Shown: positions 5,832-34,046 of the stretch, in pieces
Layout: each line of letters starts with the position of its first letter
Position numbering within the stretch: the first letter of the stretch is position 1
NCBI GenBank assembly: GCA_016787645.1
Contig: JAEUUF010000022.1
Coordinates: 496,001-560,000, forward strand
Reading direction: 5' to 3'
From: Cyclobacteriaceae bacterium
GTDB lineage: Bacteria; Bacteroidota; Bacteroidia; Cytophagales; Cyclobacteriaceae
Length of the DNA: 64,000 nucleotides
The notes under the pieces: model-generated
What the model was told of the DNA's origin: nothing
What the model saw: only the letters and a program-made list of their open reading frames with translations
The model's database searches: none
Position numbers and translations under genes: made by a program

Positions 5832-5877
5832 TCGCGCCTAATTGCGCCTTAATTGCGCCTTAAGCGCCTTTGCGAGA
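5832..5877. repeat. GCGCCTTAA-type intergenic repeat, copy 1
   Basis: The gap after CoA-transferase subunit B contains three successive GCGCC(T) words (gcgcctaattgcgccttaa, attgcgccttaagcgcc, gcgcctttgcgaga). A related block occurs at 8053-8097 at the end of the acetyltransferase gene. The two are followed by partly similar sequence (attcaggacta and atcaggatta), so they look like copies of one small dispersed element. Confidence 0.55.
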
Positions 5878-27738: not shown

Positions 27739-30555
27739 ATGCCCCGCGACAGAAGTATCCGCTCCGTACTGATCATCGGCAGCGGTCCCATCATTATTGG
27801 CCAGGCGTGCGAATTTGACTACGCCGGCTCCCAGGCCGCCCGCTCCCTGCGGGAAGAGGGAATCGAAGTGGTGTTGATCAACTCCAACCCCGCGACGATC
27901 ATGACCGACAAGATCAATGCGGATCACGTCTACCTCAAGCCCCTGGAAAAAAAGTACATCCGGGAAATTCTTGAAAATCATCATATCGACGCCGTATTGC
28001 CCACCATGGGCGGCCAAACGGCGCTTAACCTTTGTATCGAATGCGATAAGGCCGGCATTTGGCAACATTATGGCGTCCGCATCATCGGCGTGGATATCAA
28101 GGCGATTGAGACCACGGAAGACCGCGAGAAGTTCAGGCTGAAAATGCATGAACTGGGAGTAGGGGTATGCAAAGGGGCTACCGCCACCTCCTTCCTTCAA
28201 GGCAAGGAGATTGCACAGGAAATCGGTTTTCCCCTTGTCATCCGGCCCTCTTTTACCCTGGGCGGTACAGGAGGCGGCTTCGTCGAGAAGCCTGAAGACT
28301 TTGATGAGGCACTGAACCGTGGCCTGCATGCTTCACCCATTCACGAAGTATTGGTGGAGCAGAGCATCATGGGCTGGAAGGAGTATGAACTGGAACTTCT
28401 TCGCGATGGCGTCGGAAATGTGATCATCATCTGCTCGATCGAAAACTTTGACCCGATGGGGATTCATACCGGCGACTCGATTACCGTCGCCCCGGCCATG
28501 ACGCTACCCGATACGGTATACCAGCACATGCGCGACCTCGCGATTCGGATGATGAATGGAATCGGAAAATTCGCAGGCGGATGCAATGTGCAATTCTCGG
28601 TGAACCCGGACAACGATGACCAGATCATTGGCATAGAAATCAACCCTCGCGTGTCACGGTCTTCCGCCCTGGCCTCCAAGGCCACCGGGTACCCCATTGC
28701 GAAGATCGCGGCGAAGCTCGCCATCGGGTATAACCTCGATGAATTGCAGAATGCCATTACCGGCACCACAACGGCTTACTTCGAACCTGCGCTCGATTAT
28801 GTGATTGTGAAAATACCCCGCTGGAATTTTGACAAGTTCCACGGCGCCGATCGCCGCATTGGCCTTCAGATGAAATCGGTTGGCGAAGTGATGGGCATCG
28901 GCCGAAATTTCCAGGAGGCTCTTCAGAAAGCCTGTCAATCACTTGAAATACGCCGCAACGGACTGGGTGCGGATGGCAAGGAACTTACCAAACAGGCGGA
29001 TTTACTTCATAGCCTTGAGCATCCAAGCTGGAACCGATTGTTTCATGTGTATGATGCCATGAAACTCGGCATCTCGATGAAGACTATCCAGAAGTTGACC
29101 AAAATCGACCCCTGGTTCCTCGAGCAAATCTGGGAATTGATTGAACTCGAAAAGGAAATCGAGAAGTATAACCTGGATACGATCCCCAAGGAGCTTCTGC
29201 GAAAAGCCAAGGAGAAAGGATACGCCGATCGGCAAATTGCCCATCTTCTCCGCTGCCTGGAAAGCGAAGTTCACAAGAAACGTCGCGCCCTGGGCATCTA
29301 CCGGGTATACAAACTCGTAGACACCTGCGCCGCAGAATTTGAAGCAAAGACACCTTACTACTACTCTACCTTCGACACCGAAAATGAGTCCGCGGTTTCC
29401 AACAAAAAGAAGGTGATCATCCTTGGATCGGGGCCCAATCGCATCGGCCAAGGTATCGAATTTGACTACTCCTGTGTACATGGGGTGCTCGCCGCCAAGG
29501 AGTGCGGCTACGAAACCATCATGATCAACTGCAACCCAGAGACCGTATCCACGGATTTCGATATTGCGGACAAACTTTACTTTGAACCTGTGTTCTGGGA
29601 ACATCTCTGGGACATTATCCAACATGAAAAGCCCGAAGGAGTCATCGTTCAACTCGGCGGGCAGACGGCCCTGAAGCTGGCCGAGAAGCTGCACAAATAC
29701 GGTGTGAAGATCATGGGGACTTCTTTCGAAGCGCTCGACCTCGCCGAAGACCGCGGCAGCTTCTCCACGCTGCTGAAAGACCTCAGCATTCCTTATCCGC
29801 ACTTCGGTGTAGCCCGCGACGCCGATGAGGCTCTCGAAGTTTCAAAAACGATAGGCTTTCCCTTGCTCGTGCGCCCCTCTTATGTCCTGGGCGGACAAAG
29901 CATGAAGATCGTGATCAATGAGAAGGAACTCGAGGATCACATTCTCGACATCTGGAAGCACCTTCCCGAGAACAAAGTGTTGCTGGATCACTTTCTCGAT
30001 GGCGCAATAGAAGCCGAAGCCGACGCCATTTGCGACGGTGAGGATGTTTACATCATCGGCATCATGCAACACATCGAGCCGGCAGGTATTCACAGTGGAG
30101 ATTCCTACGCCGTGTTGCCTCCGTACAACCTCGGTGACTTTGTCATTAAACAAATCGAGAGTCACACCAAACGGATTGCCCTCGCGTTGAAGACCGTAGG
30201 ATTGATCAACATCCAGTTCGCCATCAAGAACGATAAGGTGTACATCATCGAAGCCAACCCGCGGGCCTCACGCACAGTTCCCTTCATTTGCAAGGCCTAC
30301 GACGAACCTTACGTGAATTATGCCACCAAGGTGATGCTGGGTGAAAAGAAGATCAAAGACTTCAACTTCAAACCGACCAAGAAGGGTTATGCCATCAAGG
30401 TGCCGGTATTCTCCTTCTCCAAATTCCCCGATGTCAACAAGCAGCTGGGACCGGAAATGAAATCCACCGGTGAGGCCATCTATTTCATCGACGACCTGAT
30501 GGACGATTACTTCATGAACATCTACTCCGAAAGGAATTTGTACCTGAGCCGGTAG
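27739..30555 (+). CDS. carB: Carbamoyl-phosphate synthase large chain lacking the C-terminal MGS-like domain
   Basis: About 938 residues from MPRDRSIRSV; an upstream ATG at 27685 adds 18 non-conserved residues and lies before the likely transcription start. The N-terminal carboxyphosphate ATP-grasp half has IGSGPIIIGQACEFDYAGSQ and IEINPRVSRSSALASKATG. The central oligomerisation region follows at about 390-530, and the carbamoyl-phosphate ATP-grasp half has LGSGPNRIGQGIEFDYSCVH and IEANPRASRTVPF. The protein ends soon after KVPVFSFSKFP, so the roughly 130-residue allosteric domain of the E. coli enzyme (binding UMP and ornithine) is absent. This is, from memory, normal for Bacteroidota. Supplies carbamoyl phosphate for pyrimidine and arginine synthesis; carA is not adjacent. 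Confidence 0.95.
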   Translation: MPRDRSIRSVLIIGSGPIIIGQACEFDYAGSQAARSLREEGIEVVLINSNPATIMTDKINADHVYLKPLEKKYIREILENHHIDAVLPTMGGQTALNLCIECDKAGIWQHYGVRIIGVDIKAIETTEDREKFRLKMHELGVGVCKGATATSFLQGKEIAQEIGFPLVIRPSFTLGGTGGGFVEKPEDFDEALNRGLHASPIHEVLVEQSIMGWKEYELELLRDGVGNVIIICSIENFDPMGIHTGDSITVAPAMTLPDTVYQHMRDLAIRMMNGIGKFAGGCNVQFSVNPDNDDQIIGIEINPRVSRSSALASKATGYPIAKIAAKLAIGYNLDELQNAITGTTTAYFEPALDYVIVKIPRWNFDKFHGADRRIGLQMKSVGEVMGIGRNFQEALQKACQSLEIRRNGLGADGKELTKQADLLHSLEHPSWNRLFHVYDAMKLGISMKTIQKLTKIDPWFLEQIWELIELEKEIEKYNLDTIPKELLRKAKEKGYADRQIAHLLRCLESEVHKKRRALGIYRVYKLVDTCAAEFEAKTPYYYSTFDTENESAVSNKKKVIILGSGPNRIGQGIEFDYSCVHGVLAAKECGYETIMINCNPETVSTDFDIADKLYFEPVFWEHLWDIIQHEKPEGVIVQLGGQTALKLAEKLHKYGVKIMGTSFEALDLAEDRGSFSTLLKDLSIPYPHFGVARDADEALEVSKTIGFPLLVRPSYVLGGQSMKIVINEKELEDHILDIWKHLPENKVLLDHFLDGAIEAEADAICDGEDVYIIGIMQHIEPAGIHSGDSYAVLPPYNLGDFVIKQIESHTKRIALALKTVGLINIQFAIKNDKVYIIEANPRASRTVPFICKAYDEPYVNYATKVMLGEKKIKDFNFKPTKKGYAIKVPVFSFSKFPDVNKQLGPEMKSTGEAIYFIDDLMDDYFMNIYSERNLYLSR

Positions 30556-30586
30556 GTTTAAGAGTTACCACTCGTGCTGTATTACA

Positions 30587-31045
30587 TCATTGAAATTCGA
30601 ACAGGTATTTCTCATCATAGGTGATGTTGAAATCCTCCAGCAGGCGGACATACTCGGTCCGAAATGACTCTTGTTGATGATGCTCCTCCTGGTTGAGGAT
30701 GTATTGAATAACATAATCGATCTGGCTGCGTGAATACGAGAAGGCTCCAAATCCTTCCTGCCAGCAGAACTTTCCCTGAATCCAATGCTGACCATTGATG
30801 AAATTGGACGACCCTGCTTTCACATCGCGTACCAGATCCGAAATGGCCATTCGTGGCTTCAGTCCCACGAGAAAATGGAGATGATCCGGCATGCAGAAGA
30901 TTGCCAGCATTTTGTGGTCGCGTTCCTGTACTATTCCGGTGATGTATTTGTGTAATTGTTCGCGGTTTTGTTTATAGATGAGATTTTGTCGTCCCTTGAC
31001 GGCAAACACAACATGAATATAAATCTGTGTGTAGGTATTTGGCAT
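30587..31045 (-). CDS. REP-associated tyrosine (Y1, HUH) transposase, RAYT/TnpA_REP type
   Basis: 152 residues. IHVVFAVKGRQNLI is the N-terminal strand of IS200-like TnpA, FCMPDHLHFLVGL carries the HUH metal-binding pair, and FSYSRSQIDYVIQYILNQ includes the candidate nucleophilic tyrosine. The C-terminal extension EYVRLLEDFNITYDEKYLFEF is typical of the stand-alone RAYT clade in Bacteroidota. No insertion-sequence ends or companion TnpB is present. Its start codon is 11 bp from a palindrome and about 100 bp from a 16-unit palindromic array, so it is probably the enzyme that mobilised or copies those elements. Reading frame is intact. Confidence 0.88.
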   Translation of the reverse strand: MPNTYTQIYIHVVFAVKGRQNLIYKQNREQLHKYITGIVQERDHKMLAIFCMPDHLHFLVGLKPRMAISDLVRDVKAGSSNFINGQHWIQGKFCWQEGFGAFSYSRSQIDYVIQYILNQEEHHQQESFRTEYVRLLEDFNITYDEKYLFEFQ

Positions 31046-31056
31046 GTTAACGGGTC

Positions 31057-31069
31057 GCTCCTATGGAGC
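31057..31069. repeat. Single REP-like palindrome next to the RAYT start (GCTCC-TAT-GGAGC)
   Basis: Perfect 5-bp stem with 3-nt loop located 11 bp outside the transposase start codon. Read on the minus strand it continues GCGACCCGTT, matching the tail of the array units (GGCGGCCCGTTT), so it looks like a diverged copy in inverted orientation. Confidence 0.6.
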
Positions 31070-31110
31070 TTTGGTGTCACGCAATAACACGGTATTTCTA
31101 CAAACTGGAC

Positions 31111-31124
31111 GTCCCTACCGGGAC
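31111..31124. repeat. Second single palindrome (GTCCC-TACC-GGGAC)
   Basis: Perfect 5-bp stem and 4-nt loop between the first palindrome and the tandem array. Same architecture as the array units but different stem sequence. May be another diverged element of the same family. Confidence 0.55.
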
Positions 31125-31142
31125 TGGAAATCCTGACTATTT

Positions 31143-31572
31143 TTTGTAGCCCCGCCAGGGGCGGCCCGTTTGTAGCCCCGCAAGGGGCGACCCGTTTGTA
31201 GCCCCGACCAGGGGCGACCCGTTTGTAGCCCCGCCAGGGGCGGCCCGTTTGTAGCCCCGTCCAGGGGCGGCCCGTTTGTAGCCCCGTCCAGGGGCGGCCC
31301 GTTTGTAGCCCCGTCCAGGGGCGGCCCGTTTGTTAGCCCCGTCCAGGGGCGGCCCGTTTGTTAGCCCCGTCCAGGAGCGGCCCGTTTGTAGCCCCGTCGA
31401 GGGGCGGCCCGTTTGTAGCCCCGTCCAGGGGCGGCCCGTTTGTAGCCCCGTCCAGGGGCGGCCCGTTTGTAGCCCCGACCAGGGGCGGCCCGTTTGTAGC
31501 CCCGCCAGGGCGGCCCGTTTGTTAGCCCCGTCCAGGGGCGGCCCGTTTGTAGCCCCGACCAGGGGCGGCCCG
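31143..31572. repeat. Tandem array of 16 REP-like palindromic units (25-28 bp)
   Basis: Each unit reads TTTGTAG-CCCC-GTCCA-GGGGC-GGCCCG with small variations. The GTAG at the 5' side followed by a GCCCC/GGGGC stem mirrors the conserved tetranucleotide-plus-palindrome layout of REP elements linked to RAYT transposases (known from studies of REP/RAYT systems). The loop varies (GCCA, GCAA, GACCA, GTCCA, GTCGA); three units have TTTGTTAG; one has GGAGC; one has lost a G. Units 5-12 are the most uniform, apart from a few changes. The array ends 20 bp from the stop of the permease gene. A frame open through it (RGGPF.. repeats) is an artefact of the 27-bp period. Confidence 0.92.
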
Positions 31573-31592
31573 TTTGTGGATATTTTTTGGAA

Positions 31593-34046
31593 TTATTCTC
31601 TGCGGAGAGAATTAACCGGGTTGACCACAGCGGCTTTGATAGATTGATAGCTCACCGTCAGCATCGCAATGGCCACCGCGATAAATCCGGCAATGAGAAA
31701 CGTGTCGATACCGATTGGAATCCGGTAAGCAAAGCCGCTCAGCCATGCATCCATGGCATACCAGGCCAGCGGCATGGCTACCACGAAAGAAATCACGACC
31801 AACTTGGCAAAATCCCTGGACAGCAGGAGCACCACACCGGGCACAGATGCGCCCAGCACTTTTCGTATTCCAATTTCCTTGGTTCGCTGGCTCGCCGTGT
31901 ATGCCGACAATCCAAACAGTCCGACACACGCAATGATGATGGCCAGGCCCGAGAATACCCGGAAGATTCTCCCGGATTGCTTTTCCTGGGCATAGTCCTT
32001 ATTCAGGTTATCTTCCAGAAACTCATATCGGAAAGGGGCTGTGGGAGCCAATTCCTTCCAGAGCGCCTCGATTTTCTGGATGCCCGCTGAGGGATCTCCC
32101 TTCAATCGAATGGCTACATAAGGCATGTTGGACGGCTTGTTCAATACCTCTGAGCTGAACATCACCAACGGCGTGATCTCATCCCGGAGGGATTGAAAAT
32201 TAAAATTGCTGACAACCCCAATCACCGTAAAGAGTCTCTCCTTCTGACGGACTGTATCTCCCCGGAACAAATCTGAATTCTTAAGTCGCGATCCGACAGG
32301 ATCTTTCAGACCAATGGTTTTAACGGCTGTTTCATTGAGCAAGATGCTCAGTGAATCGTTCGTCTCTCTCGAAAAGAATTTTCCTTCTTTGATATGAAAG
32401 CCGATGGCCGGCGCAAAATCATCATCAAAAATCATCGACTTGACTGTGAGTACTTCGTTGGAGCCCTCCGGCTGAAACATCTGCCCGAAGTTGTCGTTGC
32501 GGTTACCCACGCGCGAAGTAGTTCCAGCCGTTGCGCTTACTTCTGGCATCTGTCGAACTTTCTCAATGAATGATTCCTCGCTTTGTTGAAGGGCAAACGC
32601 TCGTTCCACAATAAGAACAGATTCCTTGTCAAAACCCAGGTCCTTATTCATCATGAAATCCATTTGCCGGCCTACCAGTAAAGTGGCCACAATAAGAAAT
32701 ACGGAAATCATGAATTGAAATACGACCAAGCCATTTCGAAGCCATGAACCTGTTGAGCTCCGGCTAAAGGAGCCCTTCATCACTTCCGCGGGTTTGAATG
32801 AGGACAAAACGAAGGCAGGGTAAAGTCCTGCCAACACGCCCACCAGCAAGGCAAAACCGGCCAGCGCGATGACCAGGATTGGGTCAAATACCAGCGGAAG
32901 CGTCTTCTCCACCAGGTTGTTGAAGAATGGCAGAAGGAAATAGGACGCGGTAACCGCAAGGGCCGTACTCAGGAAAGCCAGCAAAATGGCCTCCAGCAGA
33001 AACTGAATAATCAATTGGTTCTTCACCGATCCAAGCACTTTTCGAACTCCCACTTCACGTGCACGCGAAGTTGAGCGAGCTGTCGCCAGGTTCATAAAAT
33101 TTATACAGGCGATAACCAGGATCAGCCCGGCGATCAGTGAGAGGCCCCACACATACTTCCTGTTCCCGCTTGGGGTTGCCGTAAACTCCAGGTTCGTGGG
33201 ATCAAGGTGGATAGAAGTCAGCGGCTGAAGAAAGTACCGATATCCATTCCCGGCTTTCCTATAGTCCTCCCAGCTTTGTTTTAGCTCGCGCTCAATTTGA
33301 CCGGAAGCATACCGATCCACCATAGCCGGGAACTTCGCTTCGAGTGTTTTGTAATCAGAACCGGGTTTGAGTTTGATATAAGTATGAGAATCAAAACTGA
33401 TGAAGTTTTCCTGTGCGAAGAACTGGGCGGAATTGAAGGTCGCCACCAACTCGAACTGCGCATGTGAATTAGAAGGCCAGTTCTCAAACACGCCTGTGAC
33501 CTTAAACTCTCCAAAGTTGCCATAAAGCGTTTTGTTGATGGGCTCTTCTGCTCCGAAGAACTTGTCGGCGACGGCCTTGCTAATAATTACCTGGTTCGGA
33601 AGATTTAGTGCAGTCTTCGCATCACCCTTCAGCATGTTCACCGGAAAGAATTTCAAAAATGCTGAGTCGGTGAGGTAGACGTTGTCTTGTTCAAACGTGC
33701 GGACCTCGTTTTCAGAAACCTTGTAGTTAAAGGGTACTTCGTTATTGGGACCCAGCAGATGGAGACTGGATTCCACTTCGGGATAATCTCGCTCCATGAC
33801 CTGCGCATAACTGTGCGGGATTACACCATAAAAGGTGGAGTGGTTGGGATACTTTCGTTCCAGTCCGACCTTGAATATCCGATCCCCGTCTGCTACGAAC
33901 GTGTCGTAAGAAGTCTCGTAACGAACATACAAAACGATTAAGAGGCAGGCGGTAATGCTGACCGCCAGCCCGGTGACGTTGATGGCTGTGTAGATGCGTT
34001 GCTTGACCAGGTTGCGGATAGCGACGCGCAGGAAGTTTGAGAACAT
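31593..34046 (-). CDS. FtsX/MacB-type permease with duplicated core
   Basis: About 817 residues from MFSNFLRVAIRNLVK; the frame opens 19 codons earlier, but that extension is not membrane-protein-like and the chosen start matches the family N-terminus. Layout: helix and MacB-like periplasmic domain, three-helix FtsX block containing ARSTSRAREVGVRKVLGS (about 345), second periplasmic domain, second FtsX block with ASQRTKEIGIRKVLGAS (about 740). Such large stand-alone permeases are abundant in Bacteroidota and probably pair with MacB-like ATPases encoded elsewhere for export of peptides, lipids or stress agents. No ATPase gene is adjacent. The palindromic array begins directly after its stop. 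Confidence 0.9.
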   Translation of the reverse strand: MFSNFLRVAIRNLVKQRIYTAINVTGLAVSITACLLIVLYVRYETSYDTFVADGDRIFKVGLERKYPNHSTFYGVIPHSYAQVMERDYPEVESSLHLLGPNNEVPFNYKVSENEVRTFEQDNVYLTDSAFLKFFPVNMLKGDAKTALNLPNQVIISKAVADKFFGAEEPINKTLYGNFGEFKVTGVFENWPSNSHAQFELVATFNSAQFFAQENFISFDSHTYIKLKPGSDYKTLEAKFPAMVDRYASGQIERELKQSWEDYRKAGNGYRYFLQPLTSIHLDPTNLEFTATPSGNRKYVWGLSLIAGLILVIACINFMNLATARSTSRAREVGVRKVLGSVKNQLIIQFLLEAILLAFLSTALAVTASYFLLPFFNNLVEKTLPLVFDPILVIALAGFALLVGVLAGLYPAFVLSSFKPAEVMKGSFSRSSTGSWLRNGLVVFQFMISVFLIVATLLVGRQMDFMMNKDLGFDKESVLIVERAFALQQSEESFIEKVRQMPEVSATAGTTSRVGNRNDNFGQMFQPEGSNEVLTVKSMIFDDDFAPAIGFHIKEGKFFSRETNDSLSILLNETAVKTIGLKDPVGSRLKNSDLFRGDTVRQKERLFTVIGVVSNFNFQSLRDEITPLVMFSSEVLNKPSNMPYVAIRLKGDPSAGIQKIEALWKELAPTAPFRYEFLEDNLNKDYAQEKQSGRIFRVFSGLAIIIACVGLFGLSAYTASQRTKEIGIRKVLGASVPGVVLLLSRDFAKLVVISFVVAMPLAWYAMDAWLSGFAYRIPIGIDTFLIAGFIAVAIAMLTVSYQSIKAAVVNPVNSLRRE

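Follow-up and report, generated by a model that had tools for sequence, protein, structure and literature searches.

Does the small Y1 transposase-like gene at this locus have the palindromic array beside it as its partner and, if so, is the pair a REP/RAYT system, as a sequence-only reading had proposed, or a partnership of another kind? The gene and its repeats form a cassette of 1037 bp (30556..31592, no strand assigned) within a 64,000-nucleotide stretch of a Cyclobacteriaceae genome, hereafter the window, to which all coordinates refer. The gene occupies 30587..31045 on the minus strand and, as had been claimed, is intact: it encodes 152 amino acids, carries the subclass 1.2 signature discussed below, and was identified by its ORF, by Pfam (Y1_Tnp, E=2.1e-25), by NCBIfam and by alignment. 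An AlphaFold2 model of the product is confident (mean pLDDT 91.2).

The array, also correctly described by the earlier reading, extends over 31143..31577 on the plus strand, so that its tail strand is opposite to the gene. It consists of 16 abutting elements of about 27 bp with the unit GCCCC-GTCCA-GGGGC-GGCCCG-TTTGTA(G), and Tandem Repeats Finder scores it at 752 (period 27, 16.2 copies, 94% matches). The only other tandem repeat in the window lies at 5834-5863 (11-bp unit, 2.8 copies, score 53). An intact GCCCC/GGGGC stem with the tail end 18 nt past the loop is found in 12 of the 16 units, the final one having TGG for TAG; two of these 12 also allow an equally long alternative stem, for which the GCCCC reading was counted. 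Two further units carry an extra T (19 nt), and the remaining two have a broken stem. Between array and gene lie the two palindromes reported at 31057-31069 and 31111-31124, which belong to two single elements on the gene (minus) strand. One is a complete element (31098..31124; GTCCC-GGTA-GGGAC-GTCCAG-TTTGTAG) whose TAG again ends 18 nt past the loop and which is the top genome-wide match of our element model R1 (E 0.07). The other is a half-tail element (31050..31069; GCTCC-ATA-GGAGC-GACCCGT) ending 4 nt ahead of the ATG; similar half elements occupy the gene-proximal position in relatives whose flanks were read.

The REP-like layout attributed to the units, GTAG followed by a hairpin, takes on a different meaning in this register. 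GTAG is indeed present at the base of the stems, but because the units abut it belongs to the 3′ tail of the unit before, whose TTTGTAG shares its last G with the start of the next stem. GTAG-tagging as a property of the family was rejected: GT[AG]G occurs 0-2 nt 5′ of the stem on 28 of 2436 family strands, where about 57 are expected at equal base frequencies, and the precise window layout, where the final G of GTAG comes from the stem itself, is found on 19 of the 2436, nine of them in the window locus itself.

The cassette is flanked by the stop codons of two convergent genes, carB (30555) and a MacB/FtsX-type permease (31593). A genome of the same genus (G683, locus L171) lacks the cassette: the two stop codons there lie 1 bp from each other, and the permease is 74% identical. 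We compared 20 carB loci, comprising our own and those of 19 of the 28 other matched genomes (two loci being incomplete in length), and tblastn with the Y1 protein gave a match only in our own genome. At one other locus (L177) a related permease lies about 570 bp downstream of carB, and the remaining carB loci gave no permease match. Insertion of the cassette in the window lineage is likely, the direction of the change being unpolarised.

We assign the protein by its motifs to subclass 1.2 of the TnpA-Y1 family, which a published survey defines by the signature Y---Q--HH together with DH-H, WQ, a short core, a specific C-terminus and a length of about 150 amino acids (Quentin et al. 2018, PMC6006769). 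The window protein displays DHLH, WQ and YILNQEEHH, matched to the survey's table and text, and a short C-terminal segment that is conserved among its relatives; no variation was seen at Y115, Q119, H122, H123, D54-H55-x-H57 or W95-Q96 across the 17 relatives in the alignment. The NCBIfam model for IS200 gives 74.5 bits (cut-off 55) versus 40.7 bits (cut-off 80) for the REP-associated transposase. In a tree of 43 rows (18 of 126 subclass 1.2 loci, 16 of 30 RAYTs and nine distinct IS200 proteins) the RAYTs branch apart with 100/100 support, leaving the window protein outside and among IS200-type proteins. At E<=0.001 a profile of the 17 relatives matches eight distinct PDB sequences, each of them named as a transposase or hypothetical transposase, and TnpA-REP (4ER8) is absent from these matches. 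The closest are 2xm3 (E 9.8e-13), which we take to be ISDra2, and 2a6m, which is ISHp608 (6.8e-8).

Counting the window gene, the genome holds three Y1 homologues, the other two being 48% (L002) and 28% (L003) identical to it. L003 (G000:C5:199819-200229) shows Y---Q--HH by eye and sits nearer to the IS200 proteins in the tree, so that the 18 subclass 1.2 rows do not form one clade; two CCACGCCC/GGGCGTGG palindromes lie near it, with no tandem array. A true RAYT is also encoded in this genome, at G000:C25:4112-4561 (NF047646, 92 bits, above cut-off).

A common element emerges from the flanks of related genes. From those of 12 relatives we read the form as approximately A-NNNCC-loop-GGNNN-spacer-TTTRTAG. 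Among 360 hairpin-tail pairs with offsets of 16-30 and loops of 3-4, the tail ends exactly 18 nt past the 3′ end of the loop in 315, and stems of 5, 6, 7, 8 and 9 bp behave alike; longer stems must therefore shorten the spacer. Within 500 bp of the gene at loci L041-L120, a hairpin at 18 nt accompanies 115 of the 230 TTNRTAG tails, compared with a mean of 3.5 (largest 31) at other offsets, and four decoy tails gave 1, 1, 3 and 7. Further out the figure falls to 8 of 149 tails (500-1500 bp) and 21 of 339 (1500-4000 bp). Since 12 of these loci had been read before the pattern was written down the test is not blind, and the other offsets and the decoys serve as its internal controls.

For the family as a whole we reduced 149 loci to 126, leaving out eight in which no Y---Q--HH gene was recognised and 15 whose protein was a duplicate, and retaining L003. 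With hairpins defined by a stem of at least 5 bp and a loop of 3-5, a TAG ends at 18 nt in 388 cases, versus a mean of 21.8 at other offsets; because the tail is otherwise left free, about 22 of the 388 are expected by chance. At least one such hairpin lies within 800 bp of the gene at 112 loci, with 14 lacking one. The stricter TTNRTAG at 18 nt is present at 82 loci (250 strands) and absent from 44, and a TTTRTAG tail is found in 210 of 419 elements.

In the controls the element is at background level. TTNRTAG at 18 nt occurs on no strand at 22 RAYT loci (those of 30 with full flanks), on one at 29 IS200 loci (from nine genomes, with near-identical copies of the same IS among them) and on two at 49 distal segment pairs. 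The looser TAG at 18 nt is likewise at background beside RAYT genes (3, against a mean of 4.6 at other offsets), beside IS200 genes (5, against 6.7) and at 2.5-3 kb from the subclass 1.2 genes (4, against 4.4). For all that the protein belongs to the Y1 family and the GCCCC stems of the array have GTAG at their base, a classical REP/RAYT system, in which the gene would be a RAYT and the units GTAG-tagged REPs, is hardly credible in view of the signature (Y---Q--HH, not Y---NP) and tree placement that refute RAYT membership, the IS200-type HMM and PDB matches, the unenriched GT[AG]G, and the 22 RAYT loci of the same order without a TTNRTAG at 18 nt. What endures of that proposal is the partnership itself, between a Y1 transposase and a hairpin repeat that looks cognate to it.

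Elements occur in both orientations, with the tail pointing toward the gene in 278 of the 419 and away from it in 141, the window array being of the latter type. The earlier reading regarded such an array as unusual. Tandem arrays are in fact common in the family, being present at 40 of the 126 loci versus none of 47 distal controls, and it is the short unit that is rare: periods of 26-27 bp account for three of the 40 arrays and periods of 48-56 bp for 22. Far longer tandem units, of about 237 and 289 bp, lie beside the same gene family at L015 and L033. Relatives of the protein are also found in records titled Verrucomicrobia, Planctomycetota, Acidobacteria, Desulfonema and others, many of which are MAGs. 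TAG at 18 nt was seen in 15 of 16 listed loci from other-phylum or Ignavibacteria records, including Desulfonema (eight elements) and Planctomycetota, and no such element was found at the Anaerolineales locus. A plasmid search returned two records, both larger than 600 kb and typed non-mobilizable.

Element and gene are also associated across genomes. In 291 genomes of the order, R1 (built from 38 of 39 training elements, an AT-rich element from L135 being left out) matches at E<=0.05 in 88 of 118 genomes bearing the gene (protein query match at E<=1e-20) versus 25 of 173 others, an odds ratio of 17 obtained with at most 24 candidates scored per genome, with relatedness uncontrolled and with some training loci drawn from the surveyed genomes. 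The model is insensitive, as the 30 gene-bearing genomes without a match include the window's own. Nine of the 25 positive genomes without a close gene have a distant match to A1 (subclass 1.2), and 16, G186 and G148 among them, have no A1 match at E<=1e-8. Genomes with many elements and no close gene, such as G110, G186 and G148, may have lost the gene, may contain one that was missed, or may have another enzyme in charge. Similarity of the tail, spacer and loop increases with protein identity (Mantel r=0.18, 0.25 and 0.10, respectively, each p<=0.001) versus r=-0.02 for the stem, and the tail is the same as that of the nearest protein neighbour in 52 of 112 cases where 17 are expected. This covariation of tail and protein may also come from common descent of the two partners.

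The array had further been put forward as a possible origin of copies spread through the genome, for which searches of its own genome provided no examples. The pattern GCCCCN(3-5)GGGGCN10TAG has 16 matches in 4.0 Mb (reversed control, 0), 11 in the window array and five in an array beside L002, so that the GCCCC form was found in two arrays only, each next to a subclass 1.2 gene; L002, the second such gene, has units of 26 bp with a tail that is mostly ATGATAG and a TAG again at 18 nt. The window unit at up to three mismatches gave 12 matches in the genome, all inside the array, and R1 at E<=1 gave three, all by the window gene, among the 150 of 575 candidates that were scored and with a model that misses most units of the array itself. 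Dispersed copies were thus found by none of the unit, R1 or GCCCC-stem searches, which copies with other stems could escape.

Dispersed units are present in other genomes of the order, where we picked regions by hand from the list of best matches: 20 in five genomes, then 36 in six. Inverted ends, with a plus element followed by a minus element over a span of 136-160 bp, were seen in 21 of the 36, giving dispersed inverted hairpin pairs of the REPIN or MITE kind in these genomes only. The rest comprise seven with only a plus element, seven with only a minus element and one with two minus elements; the order minus then plus does not occur among the 36, and one of the first 20 regions (L252) reads minus, plus, plus. 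By eye, many of the units contain four hairpins (outer, inner, inner reversed, outer reversed) with the inner half tails almost joined. Gene loci often show the same order of elements with the gene at the centre, such that the small units look like a bracketed gene from which the gene has been removed, and these intergenic units of about 140-160 bp resemble miniature mobile elements. Two genomes rich in them, G186 and G148, have no subclass 1.2 gene at E<=1e-8 in assemblies that are incomplete (82% and 89%). Longer inverted repeats, GAGCCTGTTCAAA ... TTTGAACAGGCTC, enclose many four-hairpin units of G186 (L264-L279), and the units of G148 have a different pair that is AATGCGAATCAGG-like.

Hairpins between genes may simply be bidirectional terminators or mRNA-stability hairpins, near the transposase merely through its insertion there. 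Their positions would suit such a role: in 14 of the first 20 dispersed regions no listed element falls within an ORF of at least 100 aa (six have some, in ORFs that are possibly spurious), and the window cassette itself sits between convergent genes. We nevertheless consider this very improbable. It does not account for a tail at exactly 18 nt that drops to background both beside other Y1 genes and at a distance of 2.5-3 kb, nor for a tail that covaries with the protein, and a known RNA family was rejected for 30500-31700, a search of which against Rfam returned no match at E<=1.

A further alternative is that the hairpins are the ends of complete IS200/IS605-like insertion sequences, the protein moving its own gene and the miniature units being deletion derivatives. 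The gene is indeed often bracketed by inverted ends (151 elements are upstream sense and 127 downstream antisense, versus 60 and 81 in the other orientations), the carB-permease junction is empty in G683, and the dispersed units resemble the bracketed gene minus the gene. Against this, the two ends of IS200/IS605 elements are not known to be inverted copies of each other, and the window copy has elements on the 5′ side of the gene only and none on the 3′ side. The near-identical multiple copies expected of such elements are not seen in our genome, where the homologues are as distant as given above. At six Flavobacterium and Chryseobacterium loci (L044, L045, L046, L047, L051 and L053) the gene is held between the same two neighbours, which suggests long vertical residence. 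The dN/dS ratio ranges from 0.017 to 0.231 in the 16 pairs with computable dS (of 40 listed from 142 pairs at 75% identity or above), many of them with dS above 1. Judged by its neighbours and by dN/dS, this behaves as a kept gene. The survey's description of the subclass, with low copy number, a mean identity of 36.2% between intragenomic copies and no IS properties, also counts against this reading (PMC6006769), and we regard a self-mobilising insertion sequence as unlikely.

We instead consider it likely that the hairpins are the cognate single-stranded DNA recognition and cleavage sites of the subclass 1.2 Y1 (HUH) protein. The base composition of the elements suggests which strand would be folded. 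Among 354 three-base loops read on the tail strand, 182 are GNA and 87 ANC, with three TNC and one GNT, and 213 of 276 five-pair stems are preceded by A and followed by G; this one-sided bias in loop and flank suggests that the tail strand is the substrate. GNA triloops are specially stable in DNA. In predicted DNA folding the advantage of the tail strand is small (-4.76 versus -4.61 kcal/mol on average, with the lower value in 268 and the higher in 141 of the 419), and the strand argument therefore depends on the GNA asymmetry. When pairing between a guide and a cleavage site was sought by mutual information, no complementary guide pair stood out; the signals were strongest at the loop ends and at the pair closing the foot of the stem, for the most part A and G.

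On this model of hairpin recognition, the strand with the 3′ tail would fold into a hairpin of 5-7 bp with a small loop, often GNA, which the protein would bind on exposed single strands. Binding would place the catalytic Tyr115 at a fixed distance, at the TAG tail 18 nt past the loop, and strands could then, most likely at replication forks, be cut by Tyr115 at or near this tail and rejoined to a different unit or to a target. Around the gene such reactions might leave copies that bracket it (hairpin-tail, gene, tail-hairpin) as well as tandem arrays, which may grow by strand transfer between units or by ordinary slippage; in other genomes, such ends with no gene between them would make up the miniature intergenic units of about 140-160 bp.

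These findings suggest a previously unrecognised partnership of enzyme and repeat, which is REP/RAYT-like yet distinct. A literature search that included the tail and hairpin strings, and whose scope was articles other than supplementary files and bioRxiv, returned no recognised description of the element. We lean towards the broader view that the Y1 family has, on its IS200 side, a second REP/RAYT-like system, in which subclass 1.2 would be a long-kept single-strand nuclease that has its own hairpin-tail repeat, set by a constant distance of 18 nt, in several phyla and mobilises miniature four-hairpin units. If so, an orphan subclass of HUH nucleases gains a substrate and a precise rule (a hairpin, then TAG at 18 nt), partnerships of enzyme and hairpin would have arisen or persisted in both halves of the Y1 family, and there would be an explanation for a class of intergenic repeats found in Bacteroidota and perhaps in further phyla. 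A further single-strand cutter would also become available for study alongside IS608 and TnpA-REP.

How does this system compare with those already described? With subclass 1.2 as surveyed, the window protein has in common the signature, DH-H, WQ, the length of about 150 amino acids, an occurrence in Bacteroidota and a low copy number (PMC6006769). The survey's table and text place the subclass mostly in Cyanobacteria and Bacteroidetes and enter it as "no" in the REP column, whereas most of the loci examined here bear the hairpin-tail element, contradicting the published description (PMC6006769). The survey's automatic REP search, as described there, demanded GT[AG]G 5′ of the hairpin (PMC6006769), and a 3′ tail would therefore be missed. 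IS200/IS605 elements such as IS608 and ISDra2 provide the closest solved structures by sequence and also combine a hairpin with a nearby conserved site. The differences are that the bracketing ends here are inverted copies, that we detected no guide sequence of the type that, in the published account of IS200/IS605, lies 5′ of the palindrome and selects the cleavage site (PMC8266576), and that the subclass 1.2 gene is not, according to the survey's text, amplified as an IS (PMC6006769). The Y1 genes of TIRYTs and TIRtrons, like ours, have on either side inverted repeats that are not GTAG REPs, but in the portion of the source bearing on them they are described for RAYT-like proteins and without a hairpin-tail rule (PMC3733652). 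There is also a parallel with REP/RAYT, where, as far as the published descriptions extend, a Y1 gene is again flanked by short hairpins, dispersed intergenic inverted pairs and tandem clusters occur, and the type of repeat tracks the protein (PMC8266576, PMC3116915, PMC3733652); the E. coli TnpA-REP is reported to cleave at CT beside the REP (PMC8266576). The two differ, on the same accounts, in that the protein here is of class 1 and RAYT of class 2, in that a 3′ TAG tail at a fixed distance from the loop takes the place of GT[AG]G 5′ of the stem, and in that the dispersed unit here often has four hairpins. The system probably works like REP/RAYT, with a different class of protein and a different repeat layout.
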